Shown: positions 1-38,146 of the stretch, piece by piece
Layout: every line of letters begins with the position of its first letter
How positions within the stretch are numbered: the first letter of the stretch is position 1
Source: Armatimonadetes bacterium Uphvl-Ar2
GTDB taxonomy: Bacteria > Armatimonadota > Fimbriimonadia > Fimbriimonadales > Fimbriimonadaceae
DNA length: 64,000 nt
Assembly: GCA_002162095.1 (NCBI GenBank)
Contig: CP021424.1
Span: 620,001-684,000, forward strand
Direction of reading: 5' to 3'
Notes under the pieces: model-generated
Database searches by the model: none
What the model was told of the DNA's origin: nothing
Seen by the model: the letters and a program-made list of their open reading frames with translations, nothing else
Made by a program: the position numbers and the translations under genes

Positions 1-384
1 GCTGGCCACGGCGTAGCCGATGCGCAGCTGGCCGAACGGCGTGTTGAACTTCGGTCGCTGGTCCTGCGTGGACACGAAGATCTGATAGTTCTTCATGTAC
101 GGCTGGATGATCTTGTCGAAGGACATGGATTGCGTGGGGTCCGGACCACCTTGGGCGGGGCCGAAGCCTTGGCGAACCTTGGGCGCGAACATGTCATCGT
201 AGTCGGCCGAGTACATGATCTGGGCCAAGTTCATCTGCTTCATGTTCGAGACCGCTTGGGTCTTCTTGGCGGCTTCCTTCGCCTTGGCGAAGACCGGGAA
301 GAGAATGGCGGCCAGGATCGCGATAATCGCGATCACGACGAGGAGTTCAATGAGCGTAAAGCCCATCTTTCGGTTTTGAGTCAT
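1..384 (-). CDS. DUF1559-type prepilin-like protein, N-terminal part (truncated by window edge)
   Basis: The reading frame runs from an ATG at 384 to base 1 without a stop (128 codons), so the C-terminus lies outside the window. It opens with [17 protein letters not shown], a class III prepilin leader cut at G|FTLIE, followed by a hydrophobic helix ending [15 protein letters not shown]. This is the N-terminus shared by PulG-like and DUF1559 pseudopilins of Armatimonadota and Planctomycetota. Residues after 50 ([11 protein letters not shown]) match the prepilin-like protein at 31404 in layout. It follows the GH13 amylase gene by about 50 bp on the same strand and probably belongs to that operon. 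Its role on the surface is inferred; it is not proven to form a pilus. Confidence 0.85.
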
Positions 385-436
385 TTGGATCACCTTGAAT
401 GAGAGCGGTTGCGAAACTCGCAGACGCATGGATAAA

Positions 437-2524
437 TCACGGGAGCGACACCTCACCAGTGCGTGCCCGATGGACATGGCTTCGGATCTGACGAGATTCG
501 GCAGTATCGTCCGCAAGGACGGCGAGGCTGAGCGGCGGCATCTTGATGGAGAGCGATTGCTCTTCGATGCTCACCACTCGGTTAGAAAGCAGATCAATTT
601 GGGTGCCCTTGGCCCCCGGTGCGCCAAACGCCACGTTGCGTTCCACGTTGGAGCGATTGACGACAACAAAGACTTGTTCGTTCTCATGAGCGCGACGGAA
701 GACCAGGGTGCGGTCCGCGTCGTTGGCTTCAATTAAGCTCGGATCGCCGCTCTGTAGCGCGGGGGACAAACGACGCAGAGTCGCGAGGGCTCGGTACTCC
801 TGCAGGAACGGGTTTTCGTTGGTGGCCGCACTCCACACCATGCCGCGACGGTTGTCTGGGTCGCGCCCGCCTTCCATTCCGATCTCTTCGCCGTAATAGA
901 TGCTCGGCGCGCCGACCCAGGTGAACTGGAGCCCCGCCCCCAGGAGCGCGAGCTTGGCGTCACCTTCGCAGAGCGTGACGAAACGCGGAGTGTCGTGGCT
1001 GCTCAGCAAGTTGAGCATGTTGCGCGACACCGCCGGGCCATAGCCGAAGTGCACCCGCATCAGGCTGCCCCAAAACTCCGTAGAGGTCGTGCGGCCGTTA
1101 GCCACATACTGCACCACGGCATCGCGGAACGGGTAGTTCATCGCCGAATCCCACTGGTCGCCGCCCAGCCACGGGCTGGCATCGGTCCACACTTCCCCCA
1201 GAATCCAGCGGTCCTCGTCCTGAGTCTTGACGACCTTGCGGAAGGCACGCCAGAAATCCATTTCGACTTCATTCGCGACATCGAGGCGCCAGCCAGCGAT
1301 GTCGGCCTTGACCTGCCAATCGCGCACCACTTGCAGCATGTAATCACGAGCGGCGGGGTGCTTTAGGTTCACCTTGGGCATGGAGCGGAAGCCCGCCCAA
1401 GCCTCGTAATTCGGGTTCTCCTCGACGCGGATCGGCCAGGACTTGACGAAGTACCAATCCTTGTAAGCCGAAGCCGGGCCATTCTGGCGGAGGTCAGCGA
1501 ACGCCTTAAAATCTGTGCTGGTGTGGTTGAACACGCCATCCAATACCGTGCGAATGCCTTGGTTGCGCAGGCTGTGCGTCAGGTCAATCAGTTCTTGGTT
1601 GGTGCCGTAGCGCGGGGCCACCAGCGCGTAGTCCGTCGTCTCGTAGCCGTGGTTACTCGGCCCGTCGAAGATCGGGTTGAGGTAGATCGCGTTGACACCC
1701 AGCTTCACCAAATGGTCACTGCGGTCGGCGATGCCCTTGAGGTCGCCGCCGTGGAACGACCAGTAGGTCGGCGGGGCATCCCAGGCGAGACTGTTTTCCG
1801 GGTCGTTCTTGGCGTTGCCGTTCTCAAAACGGTCGGGGAAAATTTGGTAGAAAACGCTCTGTTCCACCCATTTCGGCGGCGTGAGTGACATGAGGTTCTT
1901 GGGGGCCACAAACGGACCGTTCGCGGACTGGTAAGCATCCCGCTCCGCCCCGTCGGCAATCGCAAAGCTGTACTTGAGGTCGGCGCTCCGGTTCCACGGC
2001 GTGCTCCCCACCCAATAATCGTAAAGATCGTCGCGGCTGGCAAAGCTCATGCGGGCTTCGGGCTTCCCTTCGACCCTCAGGTAGACCACCTCGACATCCT
2101 GGCGACGCGTGCGCACTGTGAGATTCGCGCGCCCATCCGCCACGCTGAGGTACGGCAGCTTGGGCTCGTGCCGCACCGCCGAGAGCGTGATGGTGCCATC
2201 GTTGATGTCCGCCGGCACCTCGTACCCCTTGGGGAACACAAACAACAGCGAATTGATGTTGCCGTTGCCGTCGTCTTGGCTACGCACCTTGGGGTCAATC
2301 ACCCAATCGCGCCCATCGAGGACAAACTTATATTCGTGCCGCCCCGGGGCCACCGGGATAGTGACCCGCCAAGTGCGGCCATCCGCCGTCTTCAGCGGCG
2401 TGGCGCTGGCGTTCCAACCATTGAAAGTGCCGGCCACGGTGACGCTTGTCACGGCGCGTTCCGCCACGAATTCGAACGTGTGGTTCACCTGGTCCATCGC
2501 CAGGAGCAGGAAGCTGGAAATCAT
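437..2524 (-). CDS. GH13 alpha-amylase family enzyme (neopullulanase/cyclomaltodextrinase type)
   Basis: About 695 residues. Residues 15-80 form an AMPK/CBM48-like glycogen-binding fold ([20 protein letters not shown]), then a second beta domain, then the catalytic barrel. All four GH13 motifs are present: GVFNHTS (~330), [10 protein letters not shown] with the nucleophile Asp (~409), ILGEVW with the acid/base Glu (~439) and SSHDTPR with the third Asp (~507). DVANE is typical of the neopullulanase and maltogenic amylase subfamily, so maltodextrins, pullulan or cyclodextrins are likely substrates. I chose the ATG at 2524 because its ATGA overlaps the TGA of the upstream lacI gene; a longer frame from 2575 would overlap lacI. 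The N-terminus [12 protein letters not shown] is weakly hydrophobic and is not a clear signal peptide. Confidence 0.9.
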
Positions 2525-3555
2525 GCCAACCCTCCCTGATTGAAACGGCTGGAACCACGCACCCGCAATGTGCACGGCACAATCTCGCGGACCGGCTCTT
2601 TCAACGGCGATTCATCCAACAAGTTCAGCAAGCAAGTTACTGCCTTCTGCACCAAACGATCGAGGTTAAGGCTCACCGAGCTCAGGCCCGGAGTCGTCAG
2701 ATCGCACAGCCGCGAGTCGTTGAACGAGACAATCCCGACATCCTGCGGGCAGCGGAGGCCGGCCCGGTGGACGGCATTGATGACTCCCATTGCCATAAAG
2801 TCGTCCAGCACCACAAAGGCGTCCGGTCGGTGCTCGGCAAGGGCCATAGCGGCGGCGCAACGGGCATTTTCCGCCCCGAAGTCGGCGTGGAAAACCATCG
2901 GCGCGCATTCATGCGCCCGCATCACGCGGCGGTAGCCTTCTTCGCGGTCGTCGCTCACCGTCACGCCTTGGCGGCCGGCAATCAGCGCTACGCGCTGGTA
3001 GCCCATATCCACCAGGTGTTGGGTGGCAATTTGCGCGGCGTAAATATTGTCGTTATCCACCGACCACACCGGCTGCCCACCCGGGTTGCCAATAAGAACG
3101 AATGGAAACTGGTCTTCTTGCAACAGGTGGAGGCGGCGGTCGTTCAGCTCGCTTTCCACCAGGATCATCCCGTCTACCCGCCGCGAGCGCAACAGCTCGT
3201 CGTAAACGTCCACTTGGTCTTGGTGGTCGCTAATGACCTCGAGGGTGAGGCGGAACTCGGTATCCGTCAGGGCGTCCGCAATGTCGGCCACCAGGGCCGT
3301 GAAGAAGGGATCGTCCGCCAGGCCGCCGCTAGGGCGCTGCACGGCCAGCCCAATCAGGCCAGCGCGCTTCTTGCGCAGTGACCGGGCGCGAGCATCGGGG
3401 CGATAGTTGTGGCTCTCAATCGCGTTGATCACGCGATCGCGCATCGTCGTTTCCACGCGCTCATCTCCCGCCAGCACACGGCTAACCGTGGCTTGCGAGA
3501 CGTTTGCTGCCTTAGCAATATCGAGTTGCGTGACCCTCATCTGCGAGTGCCTCAT
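2521..3555 (-). CDS. LacI/PurR-family transcriptional regulator of the alpha-glucan cluster
   Basis: 344 residues. Residues 7-60 are a LacI helix-turn-helix and hinge (VTQLDIAKAANVSQATVSRV, ending NYRPDARARSLR), followed by a periplasmic-binding-protein-like sensor domain to the C-terminus. It lies between GH31 and GH13 genes on the same strand and its stop overlaps the GH13 start, so it very probably controls maltodextrin genes. A second in-frame ATG at 3540 has GAGG nine bases upstream; the ATG at 3555 has GGAAG upstream, and the two cannot be separated. A perfect inverted repeat at 3591-3608 lies in its upstream region and may be its own operator. Confidence 0.92.
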   Translation of the reverse strand: MRHSQMRVTQLDIAKAANVSQATVSRVLAGDERVETTMRDRVINAIESHNYRPDARARSLRKKRAGLIGLAVQRPSGGLADDPFFTALVADIADALTDTEFRLTLEVISDHQDQVDVYDELLRSRRVDGMILVESELNDRRLHLLQEDQFPFVLIGNPGGQPVWSVDNDNIYAAQIATQHLVDMGYQRVALIAGRQGVTVSDDREEGYRRVMRAHECAPMVFHADFGAENARCAAAMALAEHRPDAFVVLDDFMAMGVINAVHRAGLRCPQDVGIVSFNDSRLCDLTTPGLSSVSLNLDRLVQKAVTCLLNLLDESPLKEPVREIVPCTLRVRGSSRFNQGGLA

Positions 3556-3570
3556 CCGGCTTCCGTGCCA

Positions 3571-3582
3571 GAATTCGTATTC
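3571..3582. promoter_or_regulatory. Possible LacI-type operator GAATTCGTATTC upstream of lacI
   Basis: GAATTCGTATTC differs at only two positions from GAAAACGTATTC at 6110-6121, in the GH31/PEP-CTERM divergent promoter region. Both are short sites with the central CG usual for LacI-family operators. They may be targets of the regulator encoded at 2521-3555. Inference from two sites only. Confidence 0.3.
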
Positions 3583-3590
3583 CCATGATA

Positions 3591-3652: not shown

Positions 3653-5977
3653 TTAGCGCGGGAGGTTAATCGGACCCGTTGAGAATACGATGAACTCAGA
3701 ACCCGTCAGCTTCACCCGATGCTCGTGCAATTTGAACTCAACGCCGTTCACTTTCACCTTCACGCGGCGGGCAAACCACAGGGTCGGCGTCACGCTTTCC
3801 CATCCGGATTCCGATTCTCGTATCGTGACCTCCGCGTGCTTGCCCGTTCCGTGGAATGAATACTCCACGCGGGTGGTCGCCCCAGATTGGTACGCCTCGG
3901 TCTCGGCATCATCGGCTTCATAAACGCCTTCTTGCGACCATTCCCCGGCCGGGTTGGCCACCAAGAAGCAAGGCGCAGCGAGGTCAACCACCGGTGTACG
4001 CGGAGCCTCGGCCTGAACCGGCACCACGTGCCCGCCCCGGACAAAGACCGGCGTATGCGAACGCGGGCAAGCCAGCTTCACCTCTCCACCGCCGTACCAT
4101 TCGCCGTCCGCTAGGTTCCACCATTGGGCATCCGGGAGGTCAATCGAGCGCTTCTTGGCTCCTTCCGTCAGCACCGGCGCCTGCAGCAAGCTGGCCCCCA
4201 CAAAGAAGGCGTCACTGGCCTCGAGATACTTCTCCTCATCGAACTCCGCCATCACCGGGCGCAGAATCGGCTCACCCAGCCGCTCCTGCCGCACAAAGCA
4301 CTGGTACAGGTACGGCAAGAACTGGTAGCGCAGGCGAATGAAGTGCGCAATGACTTCATTGGCGCGGCCAAATCGCCACGGCTCTTCGTCCGGCGCACTC
4401 TCGTTGCTGTGGTTGCGGAAGAACGGGAACAGGAAGTTCGCCTGCATCCACCGGGTCATCAGTTCGGGCGTGGAATCACCTCCGAAGCCCCCAATGTCCG
4501 GGCCGGTAAACGGCATCCCGCTGAGGCTCAAGCCAAGCGACGTGGGGATACTTTGGCGGAGGTAGTACCAGTTGCTGAGGTTATCCCCGGTCCAGATCGC
4601 TCCGTACCGGCTGGAGCCCACAAACCCGCTGCGGCTCAGCAGGAACGGACGCACCCCCGGCTTTGCCTGCCGGAACGCCTCCACCGTTGCCATCTGCATG
4701 CCCAGGGCGTACTGGTTGCGGTGCCGGGCATGCGCTTCGGTGCCCTGCCTAAACCGCATCCCCGCCGGATCCACCGGGCCGGTGCTGGGGTCGTTCATGT
4801 CCACCCAAGCGGCCGCAAATCCACGCTCAAAGAAGGCCCGGGCGTGCTTGGTCCACCATTCCCGCCCCGCTTGCATGGTGAAGTCAGGAAACACCGTCTC
4901 GCCGGGCCACACCAGTCCCACGTAGGGTTCACCGATGGGGTTCTGGCACCACACATCCGCCTTAGTGCCATGGTCGAAGATGCTGTAGCCCGCTTCCTTC
5001 TTCACGCCGGGGTCCAGGATCGGCACAATGCGTTGCCCGCTCTCTAGGAGCTTGGCGGCCACCGGGGCCACCCCGTTCGGGAACTGCTTGTCGTCCACCG
5101 TGAAGATGCGATAGCCCTCCATGTAGTCCAGGTCCAGCCACAGCCCGCTGCACGGGATCCCTTCTTTGGCAAACCTGCGGCTCAGCTTCTCCAGGTCCTT
5201 TTCGCCGCCGTAACCCCAACGGCTTTGGTGGTAGCCCAGCGCCCACATGGGCGGGCGCGGCGTCACGCCGACGAGCTTTTGCAACTTCGCCGTGAGGGCA
5301 TTGAGATCTGTATCCACCAGCACCCATAGGTTCGGCGGGCCGCATTCGGCCCCCAGTAACAGGTTCGGGTACGTCTCCTGCCACGCCACAAAAACGCGGG
5401 TACGGTCGTGCCCCGGAGTCTCCATATAGGTCACGCCCGGGTTGTGGATGAGGAACCCAACGTAGCCCCGCTCGGTGCGTACGATGAGGTACGGCGTGGT
5501 GAAGTAAGGCGGGTCGACCGGGTTTGAACCCCACTGCGCCCAGTGGAAGTCGCTCCACACGTCGGTGTTCCAATACTTGGTCCGCAGGCCACTCAGTTCA
5601 ATGCGATCCAGCCACTTTTCGCCCATGCCGTAGTAGCGGGCTTCCGAGGACACGACGAACTGAAACATGTGGGCTTCCTCGCTCACGCCGAGGGCCATGC
5701 CCGGGGCAGATTCGAGCCAGGTTTCACCATCCGGACCCACGATCACAAAGCGATCCTCTTGCCATCTCACACAGCCTTCGCCCGCCTCGCCTGGGTTTAG
5801 ACTGAGCAAGTTCGGGTCGGTGCCCCATCGCGCCTCGTCCGGGCTGACAATCTGGCTGAGACCCCGCTCGTAGGACCGGATTTCGAGGCAGAAGGAGCCC
5901 CCATGTGCTTTGGCCCATTGGCCGTCGTATTTCGCCCAGCTGAAGTTCGCGGGGTGCGGAAACTTGGTGAAGAACAT
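3653..5977 (-). CDS. GH31 alpha-glucosidase
   Basis: 774 residues from the ATG at 5977 (an in-frame TTG at 6004 would add nine). The GH31 nucleophile motif is WVDMNDPS (~390) and the acid/base motif SRSGFVGSSRYGAIWTGDN (~450-465). The N-terminal beta-sandwich and the C-terminal DUF5110-like region are also present, and length is normal for the family. It releases glucose or transfers glucosyl units from alpha-glucosides, here probably maltodextrins made by the GH13 enzymes. No signal peptide is visible (MFFTKFPHPANFSW), so it should be cytoplasmic. It is first in the minus-strand group GH31-lacI-GH13-prepilin and is divergent from the PEP-CTERM gene at 6172. Confidence 0.93.
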   Translation of the reverse strand: MFFTKFPHPANFSWAKYDGQWAKAHGGSFCLEIRSYERGLSQIVSPDEARWGTDPNLLSLNPGEAGEGCVRWQEDRFVIVGPDGETWLESAPGMALGVSEEAHMFQFVVSSEARYYGMGEKWLDRIELSGLRTKYWNTDVWSDFHWAQWGSNPVDPPYFTTPYLIVRTERGYVGFLIHNPGVTYMETPGHDRTRVFVAWQETYPNLLLGAECGPPNLWVLVDTDLNALTAKLQKLVGVTPRPPMWALGYHQSRWGYGGEKDLEKLSRRFAKEGIPCSGLWLDLDYMEGYRIFTVDDKQFPNGVAPVAAKLLESGQRIVPILDPGVKKEAGYSIFDHGTKADVWCQNPIGEPYVGLVWPGETVFPDFTMQAGREWWTKHARAFFERGFAAAWVDMNDPSTGPVDPAGMRFRQGTEAHARHRNQYALGMQMATVEAFRQAKPGVRPFLLSRSGFVGSSRYGAIWTGDNLSNWYYLRQSIPTSLGLSLSGMPFTGPDIGGFGGDSTPELMTRWMQANFLFPFFRNHSNESAPDEEPWRFGRANEVIAHFIRLRYQFLPYLYQCFVRQERLGEPILRPVMAEFDEEKYLEASDAFFVGASLLQAPVLTEGAKKRSIDLPDAQWWNLADGEWYGGGEVKLACPRSHTPVFVRGGHVVPVQAEAPRTPVVDLAAPCFLVANPAGEWSQEGVYEADDAETEAYQSGATTRVEYSFHGTGKHAEVTIRESESGWESVTPTLWFARRVKVKVNGVEFKLHEHRVKLTGSEFIVFSTGPINLPR

Positions 5978-6103
5978 GGATTCAGCGGAAGATATCCGAA
6001 CCAATCCGGCCGGCCGGGGGACCGCATCAATTACCGGGTTTGCCGTTGCTCGTACTTTTACCGGTCCCAGAACAGCTTTTCTTGTGCTAACATGCCTTTA
6101 CGG

Positions 6104-6121
6104 ATACGTGAAAACGTATTC
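6104..6121. promoter_or_regulatory. Inverted repeat and LacI-like operator candidate in GH31/PEP-CTERM divergent region
   Basis: ATACGT-GAAA-ACGTAT (6104-6119) is a perfect six-base inverted repeat. It overlaps GAAAACGTATTC (6110-6121), which resembles the site at 3571-3582. The 194 bases between the two divergent genes hold no other gene and should carry both promoters. It is a plausible binding site for the LacI protein of this cluster; no binding evidence. Confidence 0.4.
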
Positions 6122-6171: not shown

Positions 6172-7050
6172 ATGAATAAACTCGCGATTACCCTTCTCGC
6201 CCTGGGCGCAATTGCAGCAAATGCGGCCGCGGTTGTAGTGGATGGTACGGCCGAAGCTGCTTACGGCTCGGCTCTGTTCACGCAGCAGAACACCACCCAA
6301 TTCGGCAACAACAACGACAACTCGTTCAACACCGCCAACGGCTCGGAAATCGACCAAGCCTTCGGCCTGAACGATGGAACCAACTTCGCCTTCACTGTCG
6401 CTGGCAACCTCGAATCGAACTTCAATAAGTTCGTCGTGTTCATCGACAGCAAGGCTGGTGGATTCAACACCATTAGCAACTCCAACGCGTCGAGTGACGA
6501 CTTCGGCTGGCTCAACGGCAACGCCGCAGGCCTGACGTTCGACACCGGCTTTGATGCCGACTACGCCATCTGGATTCGCCACGACGGCACCAACTCCTTT
6601 ATGACCTTCGCCGAACTCGGTGCGGGCGGCGACCTTGAAACGGGTGGCTTTGCGACCGGTTCGCTCTTCACGGGCGCCCTGACCAGCATGCGCCTCAACA
6701 ACAGCAACGTGGGCGGCGTCGTGGGTGGCTCGGGTAACCAGTCCTCTCCGGACGGTAGCGGCGTGACCACGGGTTGGGAGTTCCAAATGGCGCTCTCCAC
6801 CATCGGTGCGACGGCGGGTAGCAACATCAAGGTGGCCGGCTTCGTCAACAGCGGCGGCAACTTCATGAGCAACCAAGTGATCGGCGGTCTCCCGCTGGGC
6901 ACCGGTAACCTCGCCACCACGGGCAACGTGAACTTCAACCAGTTCGCGGGCGACCAATTCGTCACCGTGCAAGGCGTGCCGGAGCCGGGCAGCATGATCG
7001 CGCTGGGTGCGGGCCTCCTCGCCCTCGCTCGCCGACGCCGCAGCAAGTAA
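6172..7050 (+). CDS. PEP-CTERM sorting-domain surface protein
   Basis: 292 residues. It has a signal peptide (MNKLAITLLALGAIAANAAA), then a long low-charge region rich in Asn, Gly and Ser, then the C-terminal sorting signal: VPEPGSM, a hydrophobic helix (IALGAGLLALA) and a basic tail RRRRSK. PEP-CTERM tails are recognised by exosortases, which move proteins to the outer surface. No exosortase is encoded in this window. The middle region (about 20-265) is not a family I recognise; a beta-sandwich carbohydrate-binding role is possible from context only. The protein at 37397 has nearly the same tail but an unrelated body. A hairpin follows the stop. Confidence 0.88.
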   Translation: MNKLAITLLALGAIAANAAAVVVDGTAEAAYGSALFTQQNTTQFGNNNDNSFNTANGSEIDQAFGLNDGTNFAFTVAGNLESNFNKFVVFIDSKAGGFNTISNSNASSDDFGWLNGNAAGLTFDTGFDADYAIWIRHDGTNSFMTFAELGAGGDLETGGFATGSLFTGALTSMRLNNSNVGGVVGGSGNQSSPDGSGVTTGWEFQMALSTIGATAGSNIKVAGFVNSGGNFMSNQVIGGLPLGTGNLATTGNVNFNQFAGDQFVTVQGVPEPGSMIALGAGLLALARRRRSK

Positions 7051-7099: not shown

Positions 7100-7145
7100 G
7101 CATCCGCCAGGACCCCGATTGCGTCTTACCTACCGCACTCCTCCC

Positions 7146-9284
7146 ATGAAAAAGGCACTCTTCGTCCTCGTCGGCATGCTACTGGCCTCGTTGGTCGTGG
7201 CCCAGGATTACTTCCAGGGCAACATATCAAGTCGTTCTGGCGCCTTCCGGTACTTCCCGGTGGACATCGAAGATCCGGAGAGTGTTCTCACCGTCACCAT
7301 GGACGAATATGGCCAAGGCGATGCAGATCTCTATGTTCGGTACAACGCCCAGCCAACTTTGACTCAGTGGGATGTGCGACCGTTCTTACGGCGGGGTGAT
7401 GAAGTGGTCGTCCTCAACGACTCGACAACCCCAAAACTGAGAACCGGACGTTACTGGATTGGAGTCGCGGGCAAGAAAGATTTCTCCGTGATTCTCACCA
7501 TCCAGAGCGAACGCAAGGCCAGTGCCCGCCCAGGGATGGGCAGCATCCCCTATAGCGGCGGCACCACCTTCCGCGTATGGGCGCCCAACGCCCAGCGCGT
7601 CCACGTGGCGGGCTCGTTCAACAGCTGGAATGGCAACGCCGCCGAATTGGTGAGCGAAGGCAACGGCCACTGGTCGCTGGACGTGCGGAATGCCACGCCC
7701 GGGCAGGAATACAAGTACGTCATCCGCAACGGCAACCAGACCCTGTGGCAGAACGACCCGCGTGCCAAGTGGCTGACCAACTCGGTGGGCAACAGCAAGA
7801 TTCACAACCCCGCCTTTAACTGGCAGAACACCATCACCATGCCCGGCTGGAGCGACATTGTGATCTACCAAATGCATATCGGCACGTTCAACGATGTGCC
7901 CGGTGGCCGCCCTGGCACCTTCGATTCCGCCATCAGCCGGCTGAATTCCCTCCAAGACCTCGGCGTCAACGCCATCAAGATTCTGCCACCGCACGAGTTC
8001 CCGGGCGACTTCTCCTGGGGTTACAACCCCTCCTATCCCTTCAGTGTCGAGGAAGCCTACGGCGGCCCCGACGCCCTCAAGCGCTTTGTGGATGCCGCCG
8101 CCGCCCGGGGCATGGTGGTGCTCATTGACTTGGTGCACAACCACTGGGGCCCGGGCGACATGAACCTCTGGCGGTTCGATGGCTGGAGCCAAGGTAACTG
8201 GGGTGGCATCTACTTTTACAACGACACCCGCGCCATCACGGCCTGGGGCGACACCCGCCCCGACTACGGCCGCCCGGAAGTGCGCCAGTACATCCGCGAT
8301 AACGTGCTGCAGTGGCTGGAAGAGTTCCGTATCTCCGGCGTGCGCTGGGATAGTGCGCTCAGCACCCGCACCACGAACTGGGGCGACAACGGCGACGGCT
8401 GGAGCCTGATGCAGTGGATCAACAACGAGGTCAATGCCCGCCAGCCCTGGAAGCTGATGGTGGCCGAAGACCTCCAAAACAATCCGTGGGTGACCAAAGC
8501 CACCGGCACCGGCGGGGCCGGCTTCGACTCGCAATGGAGCCCGGGATTTGTCCACCCTCTGCGCCCCCTCATGACCACCCCTAGTGATAGCGGGCGTAAC
8601 ATGAACGACCTCGTGGGCGCCGTTACGGGCAATTACAACGGCAATCCGTTTGAGCGGGTGATTTATACCGAATCCCACGATGAGGTGGCCAACGGCCGCA
8701 GCCGCGTCCCGCAAGAAATTGATCCGGGCAACCCGGGCAGCTACTGGGCACGCAAGCGATCCACCCTCGGGGCCGTCACCACGCTCACCGCACCCGGCAT
8801 CCCCATGCTCTTCCAGGGCCAAGAACTCTTGGAAGACGAATACTTCCGCGATACCGACCCGATCGACTGGAATAAGGCCAACACTTACGCCGGCATCCGC
8901 CTGATGTACAAGGATTTGGTGGCGCTACGCCGCAATTTGGGTGGCAAAACTGCGGGCCTGGGCGGCCCGCATATCAATGTTTTCCACGTGAATCACGGGG
9001 CCAAAGTGGCGGCTTATCACCGGTGGAAGAATGGCGGCGTGGGCGACGACGTGATCGTCATCATGAATTGGTCCAATACTCCGTTCAACCAGTACCAAAT
9101 TGGTCTCCCGCACGGAGGAAACTGGAAGGTAGCGTTCAACAGCGACTGGAACGGCTATAGCAGCGATTTCGGGAATACCTTTTCTCCAGATATCGTCGCC
9201 AGCTCCTCGCCCCGGGACGGTTTGGCCTATAGCGGTGGGTTCAACCTAGGTCCGTATTCGGCATTAGTCATTGTGCGACCCTAG
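7146..9284 (+). CDS. Secreted GH13 alpha-glucan enzyme with N-terminal PPC and CBM48 domains
   Basis: 712 residues from the ATG at 7146 (a TTG at 7119 would add nine before the signal peptide). Signal peptide [20 protein letters not shown]. Residues ~25-120 resemble a pre-peptidase C-terminal (PPC) beta domain ([20 protein letters not shown]). Residues ~130-215 are CBM48-like ([19 protein letters not shown]). The barrel has the GH13 motifs DLVHNHWG (~327), GVRWDS (~397), VAEDLQ (~438) and ESHDEVAN (~508), so all three catalytic acids are present. The motif set resembles GH13_8-type branching enzymes more than amylases, which is odd for a secreted protein; alpha-amylase or transferase activity is equally possible. 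It lies downstream of the PEP-CTERM gene on the same strand. Confidence 0.88.
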
Positions 9285-30247: not shown

Positions 30248-30358
30248 CAAGTCCAAATCGCTACATGGCGGCACTTTCCCCGAGTATCTTTCGCCCCGGA
30301 AAAAAAAGTGTGGCAATTTGCGGAGACCTCCTGCAATAATCAGCGCCACGAAGGGTTG

Positions 30359-30370
30359 AGAAACGTTTCG
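30359..30370. promoter_or_regulatory. LacI operator upstream of lacI (autoregulation)
   Basis: AGAAACGTTTCG with core GAAACGTTTC (30360-30369), ending 11 bases before the GTG start of the LacI gene and touching its ribosome-binding site GGAG. Confidence 0.7.
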
Positions 30371-30381
30371 GAGAACCAGCA

Positions 30382-31407
30382 GTGGCCGCCACCATCAAGG
30401 ATATCGCCAAGCAACTGAACATTTCGGTCAGTACGGTCAGCTATGCGCTGAACGGCGGGCCGCGTTCGGTGCCGGATGATATCCGCGAGAGCGTGCTGCG
30501 CGTCGCCAAGGAACTCAATTACCGCCCCAACCGCGTGGCGCGGTCCATGGTCACGGGCAAGAGCGACACCATTGGCGTCGTCCCGCCCGAAGTCACGGAC
30601 AACGTCTTCCTCAGCCCCTATCTCCACCTGGCCCTCAACGGCATCATCAACGAAGCCGGCCGCCAGCACCAAGACGTTCTCCTCTTTACGCGCTGCAGCG
30701 AAGTGGACCGCGATGAGCTCGCCTCCATTCTCGTAGACGGACGCGTGGACGGCGTGATCTTCATTGCCCCGCACTTCAGTGAGAAGTCGGTGGAACTCGC
30801 CGCTTCCCTGCACTCTCCGTGCGCCACCGTCTCCGGGGTGCCGCTGGATGGCGTGCTGTCGTTCTCGGTGGATAACGAATCGGGCGTGGCCAGCGCGATG
30901 GGCCACCTCTATGGGCTCGGCCACCGCAAGATCGCCCACATCGCGGGCCGCCTGGACATGCAGGACGCCCTCGTTCGCTTGCAGGCGTACCAGGCGTTTC
31001 TGCGCAATCACCACATCTCGTACCGCGAGGAGTGGGTGGGCATGGGACAGTTCACTATTGATGGGGGCCGCCGCGCCATGGCGCAGTTGCTTACGCTCCC
31101 CGAACCGCCGACTGCCGTCTTCTGCGCCAATGACGAAATGGCCCTGGGCGCCTTGTTCGAAGCCCACAGCCGCCAAGTGCGAGTGCCAGAAGATATCAGC
31201 ATCGTCGGCTTCGACATGACGCCCGGGAGCGAGAACGTCTATCCCGGCCTCACTACCGTCCGCCAACCCATCGGCGAACTCAGCGCCGCCGCCGTCCGTG
31301 CCCTCAAGGCCCTCATTGACGGCAAAGAGCCGCAAGAACCCACCGTTTTCCAGACCGAACTTATCATTCGCCAATCGACTACTTGTCCAAAGGAGCACAA
31401 ATCATGA
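30382..31407 (+). CDS. LacI-family transcriptional regulator of the second sugar cluster
   Basis: 341 residues from the GTG at 30382. Residues 3-57 are a LacI DNA-binding domain ([30 protein letters not shown]), followed by a sugar-sensing domain ([47 protein letters not shown]). The matching CG-centred palindromes lie at its own start, at the divergent glycosidase start and before the PEP-CTERM gene at 37397. Its TGA overlaps the ATG of the prepilin-like gene, so regulator and surface protein are translated together. Confidence 0.93.
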
Positions 31408-32258
31408 TCAATAAACGTTCAGCCTTTACGCTGATTGAACTACTTGTTGTCATCGCGATCATCGCGATCTTGGCCGCGATCCTGTTCCCGGTTTTTGCCC
31501 GGGCCAAGACGGCGGCGAAGAAGATCCAATCGACTTCGAACATGAAGCAGATCCTCACGGCCTTCCAGCTGTACGTGGGTGACTACGACGACATGTATCC
31601 GAAGCGCGGCACCATGAACGGCAATGGCCAATCCTGGGCGACCGGTAGCTGCAGCGTGGAGCAATGGGGATGCCCGACCTGGGACAAGGTGCTCTACCCG
31701 TATCAGAAGAATTACCAACTGTTCGAATCGTCCCTCGACCGCTCCCCCAAGAAGCCGTCGAACCTTGGCGAAGTCAAGCGCTCCTACCGCGTGGCCAGCA
31801 ACCTGATCCGCGGCGTGGGCGGCGTGAACACCTGGGGTGGCACGACCGAAACCCCGGTGACGGTCTACTCCACCACCTCGATCTCCGTGCCCGCCGAGAG
31901 CATCATGCTGACCGAGCAACGCAATGAAGGCCAGTTCTACACCTGGGATTCGTGGATTTGGTCCACGTTCTGGGAGCACTGGGTATGGGGCGCCGGTTCC
32001 AGCAACACGCTTTCCTACAAGGACGTGAACCCGAACCAACTCTGGTCTGGCATTGACTACGATTCCGGCAACGGCACCGCCAACTTTGGCTTCGCCGACA
32101 CGCACGTCAAGTCCGTACCGCGCGGCTTCCTGTTCCGCGGTTACCGCCAGTCCACGGGTGTAGGCCAGCCGGAAAACCCGGCCCTGAAGGGCGTCTGCCT
32201 CGATGCGGATGACTTTGGCGGCGGCACGCCGGACAACGACTGCCCGCTGCCGCAGTAA
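31404..32258 (+). CDS. DUF1559-type prepilin-like protein
   Basis: 284 residues. Prepilin leader [20 protein letters not shown], cut before FTLIE (the -1 residue is Ala rather than Gly), then [15 protein letters not shown]. The middle has [20 protein letters not shown] and the C-terminus [18 protein letters not shown], resembling the H-x9-DG end of DUF1559 proteins. The ATG has AAAGGAG upstream and overlaps the lacI stop. The place between a LacI regulator and a sugar ABC transporter suggests a surface or periplasmic role in sugar capture, which is inference. Confidence 0.9.
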
Positions 32259-32596: not shown

Positions 32597-32610
32597 CGCA
32601 AGAGGTTTCG

Positions 32611-33681
32611 GTGCGCGCGCTCCTGCGACTCTTCGGGGTAACCCTCGGGCTTGCCCTGGCCACGGGCATCGCCTTTGCCAAGCCCGTTGAACTCCGTCTC
32701 GTGGTATGGGAAGGAGACGAAGCGTTGCGCGTGCTCCGCGAGGTCACCAAGGACTTCGAGCGGGCCAACCCAGGTGTGAAGGTCAAGCTTGAGAACGTTG
32801 ACTATCGCTACTACTTCCAGCGGTTGCTCTCGCAGGTGGCGGGCAACACGGCCCCGGACGTGGCGATTCTTGACCCGCAGAACATGCAGATGTTCGCCAA
32901 GCGGGGGGCGCTCCGGCCGCTGGATCCGCTCATCGAATCCACCCCGGGCTTTGCTTTGGGCGACTACTATCCGCCCATCGTCGATATCTTCCGGTATCAG
33001 AAGAGTCTCTACGTTCTGCCTCGCGACATCGCCCCTATCGGGCTGATCTACTACAACAAGCGGCTGTTCAAAGAAGCCGGGCTGGAAGAACCTGACGGCA
33101 ACTGGACCTGGGATTTTGAGCCGCGCCCCGAACTGGGGAGCCAGTGCTTCACCTACTGCATGCAGCAGCTCACCGAGAAGGATGAGAAGGGCCGCACGCA
33201 GGTGTGGGGGTTTGCGCCCTCGTGGACGGGGGCCTGGACCGATACCGTCGCCTTCTCTTCCGGCGCGCGCTACGTGGACAACCCGGAGTCCTTCGACAAG
33301 CTCAATTTCACCGATCCCCGAGTCACCCGCGCCTTTGATTGGGTGGTGGAACTCGCCAACGAAAAGCGATGGCTCCCCAGCCAAAGCGAACTCACGTCGG
33401 TGGTGCAGTCCACCGCCGTGGACCTCTTCATCTCGCAGCGGGTAGCTATGTACCAGTGCGGAATCTGGGATGTCCCCCGCATCCGGCAGGCCCTGAAGCC
33501 CGGCAGCGAGAAGTTCTTCGAGTGGGATATCACCCTCGCCCCCGGCCACATCGACCCCGCCACCGGCAAGGTGGTGCGGGCGGCCCCCTCGGGCGGCTCC
33601 GGCTACGCCATTCTCAACTCCACCCCCACCCCGAGGAAGCCTGGAAGCTCGTCCAATGGATGTCCGGCGAACCCGGCATGA
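32611..33681 (+). CDS. Sugar-binding (family 1) part of an SBP-permease fusion, ended by a frameshift
   Basis: GTG start with GAGG upstream; signal peptide ending GIAFAKP. The body is a family 1 solute-binding protein (VVWEGDEALRVLREVTKDFE, APDVAILDPQNMQMFAK, DIAPIGLIYYNKRLFKEAG). The frame leaves homology after GSGYAILNST and ends at 33681. The lost continuation (PEEAWKLVQWMSGEPG) follows in the next frame. Inserting one C in the C5 run at 33623-33627 gives NSTPHPEEAWKLVQW and joins both into a protein of about 800 residues. Error, real mutation or recoding cannot be told apart here. Confidence 0.8.
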   Translation: MRALLRLFGVTLGLALATGIAFAKPVELRLVVWEGDEALRVLREVTKDFERANPGVKVKLENVDYRYYFQRLLSQVAGNTAPDVAILDPQNMQMFAKRGALRPLDPLIESTPGFALGDYYPPIVDIFRYQKSLYVLPRDIAPIGLIYYNKRLFKEAGLEEPDGNWTWDFEPRPELGSQCFTYCMQQLTEKDEKGRTQVWGFAPSWTGAWTDTVAFSSGARYVDNPESFDKLNFTDPRVTRAFDWVVELANEKRWLPSQSELTSVVQSTAVDLFISQRVAMYQCGIWDVPRIRQALKPGSEKFFEWDITLAPGHIDPATGKVVRAAPSGGSGYAILNSTPTPRKPGSSSNGCPANPA

Positions 33682-35009
33682 AGGCGATGGCTAAGGCGGG
33701 CCTTGCCCAGCCCGCCATCAAGTCGCTGGCGATGGGTCCGGACTGGATTCCCGGGCCGGACACCCCGATTGAGCAGCGCTACCCGGCCAACCGCATCGCG
33801 ACGGACCAAGCCGTGCCGTACGTGGTGCTGCCCCCCACCGCCGATTACTGGGGCGAAGTCAGCGGCCTCGTATTCTCCAAGACGGAATCCATCTATTCCG
33901 GCTCGGCGACGGCCGAACAGGCTCTCACCGAAGGCAACCGCATCGCCACCGCGCGCCTAGAGACCATTCTCAAAGAAGATCAACTACCCGCTTTCAATTG
34001 GAACATCGGCGGCGTGGTAGGGCTGGCCTTGTTTGCGGCGGCTCTCGCCTGGGTGTACTTCCCCGAGCGCGGCAAAACCCGCACCAAAGCGGAAAAAGCG
34101 GAAGGCCGCACCAGCCTGCTGTTCCTCGCGCCGTGGATCATCGGCACCCTGCTGTTCACCGTCGGGCCGATGATCTTCTCGCTCCTGATGAGCTTTGCCA
34201 ACTGGGACATCATCCAGCCCGCCGAGTGGCGCGGCATGGGCAACTATCAAGAAGCCGTGGCGCAGGATGCCCGGTTCTGGCAGACCGTCAAGGTCACGGC
34301 TGTTTACACCATCTTCTCGGTGCCGCTCGGCCTCGTCGTCTCGCTCCTCCTGGCCTTGCTACTGAATGTGAAGGTCAATGGGATGCCGGTCTACCGGACG
34401 TTCTTCTATCTCCCGGCCTTGGCCAGCGCCGTCGCGTCGTCACTCATTTGGCGCAAGGTGTTCCAGCCCGAGGGCGGGCTACTCAACGTCCTCCTGTTCG
34501 GCGCGGATGGGCAGCGCAACTTCCTGGGTCTGGCGTCGTGGCTCGGCACCGACGGGCAACTCCCCAACTGGCTCGGCAACGAGCAACTCGCCCTCCCGTC
34601 GCTCATCATCATGAGCCTGTGGGGCGTGGGCGGCGGCATGGTCATCCTTCTCGCCGGGCTCCAGGCCATCCCCGATTTCTATTACGAAGCCGCCACCCTC
34701 GACGGGGCGGGGCTGTGGCAGAAGTTCAAGGTCGTCACCCTGCCCATGGTGTCCCCGGCGCTGTTCTTCACCCTCATCACCGGGGTCATCGGTAGCTTCC
34801 AGGTGTTTACCCAGGGGTTCGTGATGACCCAGGGCGGCCCCAACGACGCCACCCGGTTCTACATGCTCCATCTGTACGACAACTCCTTTGGGAATCTGCG
34901 GATGGGCTACGCCTCAGCGCTCGCGTGGCTGCTTTTCGTGGTGGTGCTTCTCGTCACCCTGGTGCAGTGGCGCCTCAACAAGCTTGTGTACTACGAGGGG
35001 GCGGAATGA
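33660..35009 (+). CDS. MalF-type sugar ABC permease, C-terminal part of the SBP-permease fusion
   Basis: The open frame extends back beyond the frameshift; ATG 33660 is the first plausible independent start. The first ~110 residues are the end of the solute-binding domain (SGLVFSKTESIYSGSATAEQ). A membrane helix (GGVVGLALFAAALAWVYF) and a Lys/Arg linker follow, then a six-helix MalF-like permease with the ATPase-contact loop ALFDGA-type sequence EAATLDGAGLWQKFKVVTLP. Because the binding domain continues into this frame, the natural product is most likely one fused protein tethered to the membrane. It overlaps the MalG-like gene by four bases. Confidence 0.8.
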   Translation: MSGEPGMKAMAKAGLAQPAIKSLAMGPDWIPGPDTPIEQRYPANRIATDQAVPYVVLPPTADYWGEVSGLVFSKTESIYSGSATAEQALTEGNRIATARLETILKEDQLPAFNWNIGGVVGLALFAAALAWVYFPERGKTRTKAEKAEGRTSLLFLAPWIIGTLLFTVGPMIFSLLMSFANWDIIQPAEWRGMGNYQEAVAQDARFWQTVKVTAVYTIFSVPLGLVVSLLLALLLNVKVNGMPVYRTFFYLPALASAVASSLIWRKVFQPEGGLLNVLLFGADGQRNFLGLASWLGTDGQLPNWLGNEQLALPSLIIMSLWGVGGGMVILLAGLQAIPDFYYEAATLDGAGLWQKFKVVTLPMVSPALFFTLITGVIGSFQVFTQGFVMTQGGPNDATRFYMLHLYDNSFGNLRMGYASALAWLLFVVVLLVTLVQWRLNKLVYYEGAE

Positions 35010-35848
35010 ACCCGAAACTCGGCGTCCGGCTCGGCAAAATCGTGGTGGCCCTGTTGCTGGCCAGCGGGAGCATTGTGTTCCTGCTGCCGTTCTACACCTC
35101 GCTTTCCATGTCGCTCAAGACGCCCGAGGAACTGGCCACTACCTCCGCCTGGAGCTGGCCCCAGCAACCCACCTGGAGCAACTACAGCGAAGTCCTCACC
35201 AACCCCAACGTCAACTTCCTGCAGCTGTTCCTCAATACGGTCATCATCGCGGGTCTCGCCACGATTGGGGTCATCGCCAGCTCCAGTCTGGTGGCGTACG
35301 CCTTCGCGAAGATGAAGTTCATGGGCCGAGATCGGCTCTTCGTCATTTTGCTCAGCACCATGATGCTGCCCGCCATCGTGACGATGATCCCCACTTACTT
35401 CCTCTTCAAAGAGTTGCGGTGGATCAACACCATCCTGCCCCTCACAGTGCCGGCCTTCTTTGGCGGTGGGGCCTTCAACATTTTCCTCTTGCGGCAGTTC
35501 TTCTTGGGCATCCCCAAGGAACTGGACGAGGCCGCCAAGATCGAGGGAGCCGGTCACTGGACCATCTACTCCCGCATTGTCATGCCGCTGTCGGGTTCGG
35601 CTCTGGCCACCGTCGGCATTTTCTGCTTTATCTACAACTGGCGCGACTTTATGGGGCCGCTGATCTACCTCAACGAACCCGAAAAGCAGACCTTGGAGTT
35701 GGGTCTGGCCACCTACAACTCCCTGCGCGCCGAACAGTGGCATTTGCTGATGGCCGGGAGTGTGCTCGTCACGCTGCCGCTCATCGTGATGTTCCTGTTT
35801 GGGCAGCGCTATTTCGTCAAGGGCATGGCCCTCAGCGGACTCAAGTAA
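35006..35848 (+). CDS. MalG-type carbohydrate ABC transporter permease
   Basis: 280 residues with six membrane helices, the EAA loop DEAAKIEGAGHWTIYSRIVMP and the N-terminal PFYTSLSMSLKTPEEL pattern of MalG/UgpE permeases. The ATG overlaps the TGA of the fused permease. No ATPase gene is present nearby, so the importer probably shares an MsmK/MalK-like ATPase encoded elsewhere. Confidence 0.93.
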   Translation: MNPKLGVRLGKIVVALLLASGSIVFLLPFYTSLSMSLKTPEELATTSAWSWPQQPTWSNYSEVLTNPNVNFLQLFLNTVIIAGLATIGVIASSSLVAYAFAKMKFMGRDRLFVILLSTMMLPAIVTMIPTYFLFKELRWINTILPLTVPAFFGGGAFNIFLLRQFFLGIPKELDEAAKIEGAGHWTIYSRIVMPLSGSALATVGIFCFIYNWRDFMGPLIYLNEPEKQTLELGLATYNSLRAEQWHLLMAGSVLVTLPLIVMFLFGQRYFVKGMALSGLK

Positions 35849-35863
35849 TCGAGCGTTATCAAG

Positions 35864-37273
35864 ATGACATTTGGAAAGAACTTTGTGTGGGGGGCGGCGA
35901 CGGCCGCGTATCAGGTGGAAGGCGCGGCGGCGCAGGACGGGCGCGGCCCCTCCGTGTGGGATGCGTTCTGCCGCAAGGCGGGCAAGGTCGCCGAAGGCGA
36001 CACCGGCGACACCGCCTGCGACCACTACCACCGCTATCGAGAAGACATCGCCATGATGCGCGCCCTCGGGGTGCAGGCGTATCGGTTTTCCATCTCTTGG
36101 TCGCGCGTGTTGCCGGAAGGCACGGGCCGCGTCAACCACCAGGGATTGGACTTCTACCACCGGCTGGTGGATGAGCTTCTGCGCAACGGGATCGAGCCGT
36201 ACCCCACCCTGTTCCACTGGGATTATCCGCAGGAGCTTTACCTTCAGGGTGGCTGGCTGAACCGCGACACGGTGGAGTGGTTTGGCGAGTACGCCGAACT
36301 CGTCGGGCGGCAACTAGGCGACCGCGTGAAGAACTGGTGGACCCTGAACGAGCCCCCATGCTTCCTCGGCCTTGGTCACGTCAACGGCATCCACGCCCCG
36401 GGCTTGCAACTCGATTGGCCGGACTTCTTCCTGGCCACCAAGCATGCACTGATGGCGCACGGTCGCTCGGTGCAGGCGCTGCGCGCTACCGCCCGGCAAC
36501 CGATCGGCATCGGCTACGTCCCCATCAGCCACATCGGCATCCCGGCTGACGAGTCGCCCGAGAATATTGAAGCGGCTCGCGAGTTCACCTTCGGCGTGCC
36601 GACGGCGGACCGAACGTTCTGGTACAGCCGTCTCTACCTGGACCCCGTCGTGCTGGGTGAATGGCCGGAGGAGTGCGTGCGCGTGCTGACCGATCGCGGG
36701 CCGGAAGTGACGACCGAAGACCTGGCCCTGATGAGCCAGCCTATCGAGCGGCTCGGCCTCAATTTCTACGCCGCGCCCTACATCCGCCGGGGTGCCGATG
36801 GCCGGCCTGAGACCGTGGCGCTGCCGCCGGGGCATCCGCGCTCGGCTTTCGACTGGCCCGTGACGCCCGAAGGCCTCTATTGGTCGGTGCGATTCCACGA
36901 GGAGCGGTACGGCCTGCCGACCATGATCGCCGAAAACGGCCTCAGCTGCCGCGATTGGGTCTCCGAAGACGGTGCCGTGCACGATCCGCAACGTATTGAC
37001 TATCTTTCGCGGCACCTCAAAGGGCTGCACCGGGCGGATGACGAGGGGTACCAGATTCAGGGTTACTTCCATTGGTCGCTGATGGACAACTTCGAGTGGG
37101 CGGAAGGCTACCGGCACCGTTTTGGGCTGATCCACGTGGACTTCCAAACTCTTCGGCGGACCCCGAAGGATTCGGCCGCGTGGTACGCGCAGGTCATTGC
37201 CAACAACGGCCTGTCGGCCCCCAAGGCAACGAGCACCCATGCGCTCGTCGGCACGAGGCCAACCCTCAGCTAA
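35864..37273 (+). CDS. GH1 beta-glucosidase
   Basis: 469 residues, full GH1 length. N-terminal signature FVWGAATAAYQVEGA (residues 5-19), acid/base Glu in TLNEPP (~161), nucleophile Glu in IAENGLS (~356), and the C-terminal aglycone-site motif FEWAEGY. No signal peptide, so it acts in the cytoplasm on imported beta-glucosides such as cellobiose or other beta-linked oligosaccharides. It follows the permease gene by 15 bp, which links the importer to beta-glucoside use. Confidence 0.95.
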   Translation: MTFGKNFVWGAATAAYQVEGAAAQDGRGPSVWDAFCRKAGKVAEGDTGDTACDHYHRYREDIAMMRALGVQAYRFSISWSRVLPEGTGRVNHQGLDFYHRLVDELLRNGIEPYPTLFHWDYPQELYLQGGWLNRDTVEWFGEYAELVGRQLGDRVKNWWTLNEPPCFLGLGHVNGIHAPGLQLDWPDFFLATKHALMAHGRSVQALRATARQPIGIGYVPISHIGIPADESPENIEAAREFTFGVPTADRTFWYSRLYLDPVVLGEWPEECVRVLTDRGPEVTTEDLALMSQPIERLGLNFYAAPYIRRGADGRPETVALPPGHPRSAFDWPVTPEGLYWSVRFHEERYGLPTMIAENGLSCRDWVSEDGAVHDPQRIDYLSRHLKGLHRADDEGYQIQGYFHWSLMDNFEWAEGYRHRFGLIHVDFQTLRRTPKDSAAWYAQVIANNGLSAPKATSTHALVGTRPTLS

Positions 37274-37277
37274 GCCG

Positions 37278-37299
37278 CCCCGTAACTTTGCGGGTTTTT
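37278..37299 (+). terminator. Weak terminator after the GH1 gene
   Basis: CCCG, a nine-base loop and CGGG followed by TTTTT. The short stem suggests partial termination before the separately regulated PEP-CTERM gene. Confidence 0.4.
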
Positions 37300-37343
37300 G
37301 CTAACGATGGACTTTTGGTGGTGTAGAATATCCACAGGTGATC

Positions 37344-37367
37344 CGAAACGTTTCGCGAATCGTTTCG
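37344..37367. promoter_or_regulatory. Tandem LacI operators before the PEP-CTERM gene
   Basis: CGAAACGTTTCG (37344-37355, perfect palindrome) is followed at once by CGAATCGTTTCG (37356-37367, one mismatch). The core equals the sites at 30194 and 30360. The pair lies 30-53 bases before the ATG at 37397, a place fit for repression. Confidence 0.7.
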
Positions 37368-37396
37368 GTCACGCACTCTCTTAGAGGAAATTGAAC

Positions 37397-38146
37397 ATGT
37401 TCATGAAGAATTCACGAGTGGCGATGGTGGCACTTGGGGCAGTTATGGCCTCCAGCGCTTTCGCTAGCCTGACGACCTACAACCAAGACTTCGAAAGTCT
37501 GGCCGCGGGCAATGGTGGTGCCTTGTCCGGTGACGGTTGGAAGATTTTCGCCAACGTCTTTGACTCCGCCGACAACTATCTGTACGGCTACGGTCCGTTC
37601 GGCGCGCCGAACGGCGGTGCGGGCTTCTCGGCCATCGCTACTGGCGAAGCCGGGCCGAACCAGGGTCAGCAGTACATCAACACGTACAGCGACTACAACA
37701 ACGGCGACCACGGCAACAACCGAAAGATTGAGGCCAACATCTTCCAAGAGCAGATCATCAGTGCGGCCGACCTCGGTCAAACCTTTACGTTCGGCTTCGA
37801 TTACAAGGCGTCTTCGGGCTTCGGTCCGGGCGGCGCTTCCCGCACGTGGGCGTTCATCAAGGTTCTCGACCCGGCCAACGGATTCAACCTGGTCGCCTTC
37901 CCGCGAATTGAAACCACGGCGGCTTCCACCTCCACTTGGTCGGAAGGCAACACGATCAACATCACGATCGACCCGTCCTGGACGAACAACATCCTCCAGT
38001 TCGGCTTCATGAACACGGCCACGGCCTACGAGCCGACCGGTATGTACTACGACAACGTGTCGTTCAGCGCGGTGCCGGAACCGGCTTCGATGATCGCCCT
38101 CGGCGCGGGCCTGCTGGCTCTCGCCCGCCGGCGACGCAAGGCGTAA
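37397..38146 (+). CDS. PEP-CTERM sorting-domain surface protein of the second sugar cluster
   Basis: 249 residues from the ATG at 37397, with AGAGGAAA upstream (a TTG at 37391 would add two). Signal peptide (VAMVALGAVMASSAFA), a central domain (LTTYNQDFESLAAGNGGALS, then TFTFGFDYKASSGFGPGG) that looks like a jelly-roll domain, and the tail VPEPASM-IALGAGLLALA-RRRRKA. The tail is nearly identical to that of the protein at 6172. Tandem LacI operators precede it, so it is probably induced with the beta-glucoside genes and may help hold the substrate at the surface. Confidence 0.9.
   Translation: MFMKNSRVAMVALGAVMASSAFASLTTYNQDFESLAAGNGGALSGDGWKIFANVFDSADNYLYGYGPFGAPNGGAGFSAIATGEAGPNQGQQYINTYSDYNNGDHGNNRKIEANIFQEQIISAADLGQTFTFGFDYKASSGFGPGGASRTWAFIKVLDPANGFNLVAFPRIETTAASTSTWSEGNTINITIDPSWTNNILQFGFMNTATAYEPTGMYYDNVSFSAVPEPASMIALGAGLLALARRRRKA

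Follow-up and report, generated by a model that had tools for sequence, protein, structure and literature searches.

A pair of sugar-utilization gene clusters in Armatimonadetes bacterium Uphvl-Ar2 raises the question of what a prepilin-like protein is doing in the company of a LacI-family regulator, glycosidases and a sugar importer. The clusters lie in a stretch of 64,000 nucleotides (GenBank contig CP021424.1, positions 620001-684000; hereafter the window, with coordinates counted from its first base) of a genome that consists of a single contig of 2,633,441 bases and is 99.66% complete. An initial annotation had assigned a LacI regulator, glycosidases, a prepilin-like protein and a PEP-CTERM protein to each cluster, and had proposed a substrate-inducible surface capture system made of one pseudopilin and one sorted protein per sugar. 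All of the genes it listed are present, and LacI, N_methyl, PEP-CTERM and the glycoside hydrolase (GH) families GH31, GH13 and GH1 pass the Pfam gathering cut-offs, which were applied to the window proteins. Both clusters share a core of LacI, the prepilin, a fusion of solute-binding protein (SBP) and MalF permease, and a MalG-type permease, to which glycosidases are added; this common transporter was absent from the initial annotation. The two regulators and their prepilins are as follows.

2521..3555, minus strand: LacI-family regulator of cluster 1 (PF00356, E = 9.4e-16; PF13377, 5.8e-34)
1..384, minus strand: N-terminal part of the cluster-1 prepilin-like protein (N_methyl, 2.7e-8 on the whole protein, L008:13521-14432)
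30382..31407, plus strand: LacI-family regulator of cluster 2 (PF00356, 8.8e-13; PF13377, 1.7e-36)
31404..32258, plus strand: cluster-2 prepilin-like protein (PF07963, 2.3e-8; N-terminal helix 10-60 in the AlphaFold model)

The cluster-1 prepilin gene crosses the window edge, and its stop lies about 480 bases further left, at L008:13521. In cluster 2 the stop of LacI and the start of the prepilin overlap within ATGA, and it is in this sense, not as a protein fusion, that the two genes can be called fused, as they had been described.

Prepilin genes often follow LacI genes

The genome has two LacI matches at an E-value of 0.001, both inside the window, together with 46 N_methyl matches (42 over the cut-off) and 38 PEP-CTERM matches (37 over the cut-off), so many that vicinity alone is modest evidence. 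LacI matches were taken from 40 relatives, and 100 neighborhoods of up to 20 kb each were examined along with 40 control stretches, hand-picked at a distance from LacI matches. Outside the genome itself 113 LacI matches exceeded the cut-off, one of which (an 886-residue frame in G029) was judged spurious, while a further eight, weaker ones and several of them near contig ends, fell outside the sample. The 100 stretches yielded 106 LacI open reading frames (ORFs), and 104 of these, from 25 relatives, are full length with a helix-turn-helix (HTH) domain.

A prepilin gene lies on the same strand 0.9-4.5 kb downstream of 69 of the 104 LacI genes, measured from LacI start to prepilin motif. In 1000 draws of 104 anchors from the control stretches the mean was 0.67 and the largest value 4, and the density of prepilins upstream of LacI or on the opposite strand is about that of the background. 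The co-occurrence above chance that the initial annotation had named as its check is thus found for the prepilins. Adjacent genes account for 44 of the 69 pairs, with 8-274 bases from the end of LacI to the prepilin motif; in 8 more the prepilin follows after about 1.0-1.3 kb, and in 17 after about 2.1 kb. PF00128 was matched by 17 of the 24 intervening genes scanned (25 ORFs in all), which fits the 17 long gaps. Since two LacI genes in L121 have one prepilin in common, the 69 linked genes correspond to 68 distinct prepilins. At least one such pair is present in each of the 25 relatives that contributed LacI genes. Among genes that come after the prepilin (49 scanned of 60), 11 match PF10091, 6 match SBP_bac_1 and one each matches GH5, GH10, GH13, GH16, GH2 and apiosidase, the rest having another match or none.

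The relatives' genomes share ancestry, and the linkage counts are accordingly not independent events. In a sample of the phylum, viewed to about 600 bases past LacI, a prepilin lies at most 400 bases downstream in 11 of 28 LacI loci, and outside the family of Uphvl-Ar2 the pairing is present in 10 of 27 loci, from 7 genomes in 5 families. The prepilin bodies fall into 19 groups, and this variety, together with the spread over families, speaks for repeated retention. Divergence of LacI and of the prepilin body is correlated (Spearman 0.145, a value that none of 2000 permutations attained; n = 67, with 3 shortened proteins and the L121 duplicate omitted and the 2 window pairs added), and LacI and prepilin body have the same nearest neighbor in 28 of 67 cases; pilins therefore tend to follow their cassettes. 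In L064 and L115, which have no downstream prepilin, a prepilin is divergent from LacI at about 127 and about 599 bases from its start.

Approached from the prepilin side, the picture is different. In a named set of prepilin loci a full-length LacI gene is directly upstream in only 3 of the 80 loci listed, which are mostly from Verrucomicrobia (L191, L199 and L254), and the upstream genes are mixed, with a LacI HTH in 3 of 52 scanned (63 ORFs in all). LacI pairing as a rule for the prepilins of other phyla is therefore unsupported from this side. The prepilin relatives include, among the matches listed, records from Fimbriimonadaceae, Fimbriimonadales and other Armatimonadota, and the Fimbriimonadaceae record L191 resembles stretches of own-family genomes over about 1 kb at 66-69%. 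In L254:847-2631, a Lentisphaerae record, and L199:192-2120, recorded as a bacterium, a LacI gene is directly followed by a prepilin, and the pairing may extend beyond Armatimonadota. We found no description of it in the literature searched, which largely left subscription papers uncovered, so an earlier mention is possible.

Operator-like sites

Both LacI proteins exceed the cut-offs for PF00356 and PF13377, and each has a CG-centred palindrome, recognized by its sequence pattern, close upstream of its own operon. The candidate sites in the window, to which no strand is assigned, are these.

3571..3582: operator-like site GAATTCGTATTC before LacI 1
6110..6121: operator-like site GAAAACGTATTC between the GH31 and PEP-CTERM genes, present also in L058 and L112 from the same genus
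30192..30205: operator-like site GCGAAACGTTTCTC, located where the divergent glycosidase gene begins
30358..30371: operator-like site GAGAAACGTTTCGG before LacI 2
37343..37368: two overlapping operator-like sites before PEP-CTERM gene 2, the second with one mismatch

CG-centred palindromes occur within 200 bases upstream of 36 of the 69 linked and 8 of the 35 unlinked LacI genes, compared with 16 of 436 control frames of at least 350 residues. Among loci that were selected, here and in the cassette comparisons below, as members of either cassette type, all 17 relatives with the cluster-1 type have a site that differs from GAATACGTATTC at no more than one base, 16-64 bases before LacI, and sites within one mismatch of GAGAAACGTTTC precede LacI in 4 of 5 relatives with the cluster-2 type (not in L079). 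In 800 kb of control sequence the two patterns occur twice and once, respectively.

Across the whole genome the extended cluster-1 pattern is exact only at window position 6110; with one mismatch it occurs at 3571 and at five more positions, including window 9171 within the gene for the secreted GH13, and its reversed control gives 0 and 1 matches. The cluster-2 genome pattern was written from the window's sites at 30192, 30358 and 37343, which match it exactly by construction, and it has no exact match beyond these three places in the whole 2.63 Mb genome. If one mismatch is allowed, a fourth site overlaps the third and a fifth lies at genome position 718000. A site also precedes the homologue of PEP-CTERM protein 2 in L079, L109 and L111. 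Judged from these sites, LacI, glycosidase, prepilin and PEP-CTERM genes are probably organized as two LacI regulons.

The prepilin-like proteins

Both window prepilins have the features of type IV pilins and pseudopilins: a class III leader, the motif F-[TS]-L-x-E and a hydrophobic helix, with PF07963 scores of 33.7 and 33.5 bits (cut-off 21.2). The NCBIfam GspG model matches their N-termini at 30.8 and 39.9 bits, below its cut-off of 88.85. They resemble the DUF1559 (PF07596) or H-X9-DG prepilins of Planctomycetes, Verrucomicrobia and Lentisphaerae in the start of the leader and in a late D-[GST]-[HS] motif, which is present in 64 of 67 linked prepilins, 12 of 14 unlinked prepilins from the same genomes and 58 of 89 named-set proteins listed. 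Unlike those prepilins, they miss the cut-off for PF07596 (DUF1559, SBP_bac_10), with 14.1 and 21.7 against 23.3 bits, neither is among the genome's 7 PF07596 matches, and neither has a match to TIGR04294 (H-X9-DG) up to an E-value of 0.01. DUF1559-type prepilins are numerous elsewhere, with 74 genes in Rhodopirellula baltica (PMC2754498) and 68 paralogues in Planctopirus limnophila (PMC10632474), and the available parts of these two papers give no tested function for them.

An AlphaFold model of the cluster-2 prepilin, built with 40 sequences, has a helix at residues 10-60 that is modelled confidently and a small alpha-beta core that is confident in part, with residues 75-89, 122-151, 175-214, 247-256 and 261-284 scoring below 50. 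Foldseek and HMMER reach pilins through the N-terminus only.

PEP-CTERM genes near LacI

Both PEP-CTERM proteins exceed the PF07589 cut-off and the genome has one exosortase match (371795-372553), the combination expected of an exosortase-sorted protein. As the initial annotation had said, their tails, VPEPGSMIALGAGLLALARRRRSK and VPEPASMIALGAGLLALARRRRKA, are nearly identical. A single-sequence model of PEP-CTERM protein 2 is poor, with a mean predicted local distance difference test (pLDDT) score of 42.5, and its profile has no credible solved relative (best E 0.25).

Within 5 kb of LacI a PEP-CTERM gene occurs in 13 of 104 cases, against a control value of 8.7 (standard deviation 2.7) that reaches 13 in 8.5% of draws; within 8 kb the figures are 24 of 104 against 13.1 (standard deviation 3.3), and 0.2% of draws reach 24. 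Despite this excess within 8 kb, a general rule linking LacI to PEP-CTERM genes was rejected, the LacI stretches having 2.0 tails per 100 kb and the controls 1.75. The initial annotation had named co-occurrence no better than chance as grounds for abandoning its proposal, and the weak result at 5 kb comes close to that for the PEP-CTERM genes. Its "one sorted protein per sugar" is supported for both window cassettes, where an operator-like site stands before each PEP-CTERM gene and protein 2 is kept in another genus, and fails as a general rule: the sorted protein is a feature of these particular cassettes, and elsewhere near LacI PEP-CTERM genes are at most weakly enriched. Among LacI genes with no downstream prepilin, the next gene was scanned for 29 of 35, and 2 of these 29 genes carry a PEP-CTERM motif (L039-L138); some LacI regulators may thus govern a sorted protein with no pilin involved.

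Gene content of the two clusters

The other genes of cluster 1 are as follows.

437..2539, minus strand: GH13, neopullulanase-like, with CBM48/AMPK1_CBM (PF00128, 4.3e-70)
3653..6004, minus strand: GH31 alpha-glucosidase-type enzyme (PF01055, 1.6e-108)
6172..7050, plus strand: PEP-CTERM protein 1 (PF07589, 26.4 bits, cut-off 20.7)
7119..9284, plus strand: secreted GH13 with CBM48 (Pfam; leader visible in the ORF)

To the left of the window, after the prepilin and on the same strand, Pfam identifies an SBP::MalF fusion, with SBP and MalF permease in one polypeptide at L008:10768-13497, and then a MalG-like permease. With matches to SBP_bac_1 and BPD_transp_1, L008 thus has the SBP and two permeases of a maltose-type importer. 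Just past the transporter, on the opposite strand, L008:7757-8680 encodes a trypsin-like protease with a PEP-CTERM tail. SBP::MalF frames number 15 among the loci examined, counting the one in L008 and one from a control stretch. The order LacI, GH13, prepilin is kept in 15 of 15 cluster-1-type loci compared, in four of which (L051, L070, L073 and L080) the prepilin body has no match to that of the window, and an SBP::MalF fusion adjoins the cassette in 5 of the 15. A homologue of PEP-CTERM protein 1 is present only in L058, from the same genus, among 20 loci, some of which (L112) end too early.

Cluster 2 contains, besides its regulator and prepilin:

28663..30213, minus strand: GH2-barrel-type glycosidase with a lipoprotein-like leader (PF02836, 4.3e-7), frame broken near 28681
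32611..33681, plus strand: solute-binding part of the SBP::MalF fusion, with a frame break near 33622 (815-residue frame intact in L111)
33339..35009, plus strand: MalF permease part of the fusion in a second reading frame (ORF and homologues)
34925..35848, plus strand: MalG-type permease (homologues at the equal place in L111, L079 and L109)
35864..37273, plus strand: GH1 glycosidase (PF00232, 1.6e-146)
37391..38146, plus strand: PEP-CTERM protein 2 (PF07589, 30.0 bits)

The whole cluster, from divergent glycosidase through PEP-CTERM gene, is kept gene for gene in L111, L079 and L109, which represent two further genomes of the same genus and one of another genus (L109), with PEP-CTERM protein 2 homologues at 97%, 67% and 64% identity, respectively. 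L109:1058-2206 encodes a second copy of this protein, in which, by eye, a dockerin-like C-terminus replaces the PEP-CTERM tail. The break in the SBP::MalF frame falls in a run of C (window 33620-33625) that is one base shorter than in L111 from the same genus; it is probably a sequencing error, and a real mutation is possible. The divergent glycosidase is likewise broken at a C-run (window 28675-28685) one base shorter than in L111, where the frame has 610 residues.

Export machinery and TonB

The genome has 11 matches to the T2SSE/PilB/PilT ATPase family. It has no match to the TonB plug domain PF07715, the part by which the pore of a SusCD locus would be recognized, and a SusC-type pore is therefore unlikely there. 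Among 41 genomes 18 have a TonB plug match, mostly one and at most seven. When the weak LacI matches of G012, G017, G019 and G040 and the doubtful G029 match are left out, the numbers of LacI and TonB-plug matches within the family give a Spearman coefficient of -0.46 (Fisher p 0.058), with no relation over the 41 genomes, and we base no conclusion on them.

Discussion

We read each cluster as a LacI regulon devoted to a single class of glycan, with a dedicated prepilin that captures or presents the glycan at the envelope; we consider this plausible, though a little short of probable. Cluster 1 would serve alpha-glucans (GH31, two GH13) and cluster 2 beta-glucosides (GH1, GH2-type), and each regulon would supply cytoplasmic and exported glycosidases, an inner-membrane ATP-binding cassette (ABC) importer whose SBP is fused to a permease, and its own prepilin-like protein. 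Once the sugar is present, LacI would leave its operator-like sites; the prepilin leader would be cut by prepilin peptidase, and the protein would be assembled or held in the membrane by a shared type IV pilus or type II secretion machine, where its variable, tryptophan-rich body would bind or present the glycan at the envelope. The glycosidases would trim the glycan and the ABC importer would take the product. An exosortase-sorted PEP-CTERM protein would be made along with these in the two regulons, probably to act as a partner in surface binding or in holding enzymes. The part of the original proposal that posited one inducible pseudopilin per sugar gains support from the order-wide and phylum-sample LacI-prepilin pairs and from the conserved operator-like sites.

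Two considerations make us prefer capture or presentation: pilins vary and differ from cassette to cassette, whereas the machine is common to them, and dextran binding to pili-like fibres has been observed in Planctomycetes. In the available part of the report, gold-labelled dextran was found mainly on such fibres of two species (Boedeker 2017, PMC5394234). Polysaccharide binding by a pilus-like structure is what we propose here too; the fibre protein is unnamed and a link to a regulator undescribed in that part of the text.

A dedicated pseudopilin could instead, in the presence of the sugar, become part of a type II secretion machine and aid export of the extracellular enzyme of its locus. 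The genome does have ATPases of the type II secretion and type IV pilus type, the GspG model does reach the prepilin N-termini below its cut-off, and both clusters encode exported glycosidases. Known type II machines, by contrast, use a single common pseudopilin set for many substrates, the GH1 and GH31 ORFs lack an export leader by eye, and the prepilin bodies, about 250 residues long and divided into 19 groups, suit variable binding better than a conserved piston, so that we regard a role in secretion as rather unlikely. We also think it unlikely that the prepilin acts from the membrane, without forming a fibre, as a binding protein that delivers solute to the ABC importer or as a sensor of the sugar: although it directly precedes the importer in both clusters, its scores are under the PF07596 cut-off, these operons already hold an SBP fused to the permease, and SBP_bac_1 was matched by so few (6 of 49) of the next genes scanned.

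The type IV pilin N-terminus and the pilus-type ATPases would equally suit an adhesion module, a sugar-induced pilus by which the cell attaches to a polysaccharide surface and which has nothing to do with uptake, but linkage to sugar importers and intracellular-type glycosidases fits uptake at least as well, and we hold simple adhesion to be distinctly unlikely. Finally, the linkage could be an accident of gene density or hitch-hiking without joint function, given that the genome has as many as 46 prepilin matches. With 69 of 104 LacI genes paired against 0.67 expected, and the pairs concentrated on one strand and one side and found in several families of the phylum, this is very improbable; chance vicinity is refuted for the LacI-prepilin pairs, and not for PEP-CTERM genes in general.

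Several observations weigh against glycan capture by a LacI-controlled prepilin. Much of the prepilin body is modelled with low confidence (mean pLDDT 64), the body has no recognizable fold, Foldseek yielding nothing but pilins and matches at chance level (best E 0.4), and tryptophan is in slight excess, at 4.2 percent of the body in 67 linked prepilins and 3.7 percent in 14 unlinked ones. As many as 35 of the 104 LacI genes have no same-strand prepilin downstream, so LacI regulation does not require one, and prepilins lie mostly away from LacI, with 2 of the 42 over the cut-off in this genome adjoining it. PEP-CTERM genes generally stand outside the plan across the 104 LacI genes. The one-mismatch cluster-2 pattern is no commoner than its reversed control (5 and 6 per strand), and only the exact and conserved sites therefore carry weight.

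The clusters resemble LacI-controlled sugar operons with ABC importers of the maltose or cellobiose type, having LacI, palindromic CG-centred operator-like sites, SBP, MalF, MalG and glycosidases. Unlike those operons, they encode SBP and MalF as a single polypeptide, place a prepilin gene between regulator and importer, and include a PEP-CTERM gene in the presumed regulon. With the SusCD loci of Bacteroidota they share an idea, one regulated locus per glycan that encodes enzymes and a dedicated envelope protein, and the likeness would be one of function. SusCD loci are under SusR-type control, whereas control here would be by LacI, import is of the ABC type, no TonB plug was matched, and a surface complex is hypothetical.

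Dedicated pilins beside LacI suggest that sugars may be captured on pilus-type proteins and not at TonB/SusCD pores. It is possible, though doubtful, that glycan uptake in Armatimonadota more broadly proceeds through a pilin-based, mostly TonB-independent polysaccharide utilization locus, in which most glycan regulons would supply a pseudopilin of their own, exchanged into a shared pilus or secretion machine to capture that particular glycan; LacI would act as the switch, and an ABC importer and in some cases an exosortase-sorted protein would complete the locus. The tight link of one such prepilin to one LacI, whose sites can be read from the sequence, and to a single set of glycosidases makes prepilin function directly testable, since it allows an inducer and a partner for binding to be predicted in every case. 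If glycan capture by dedicated prepilins is borne out, it could help to explain how polysaccharides are gathered by diderm bacteria that lack SusCD.

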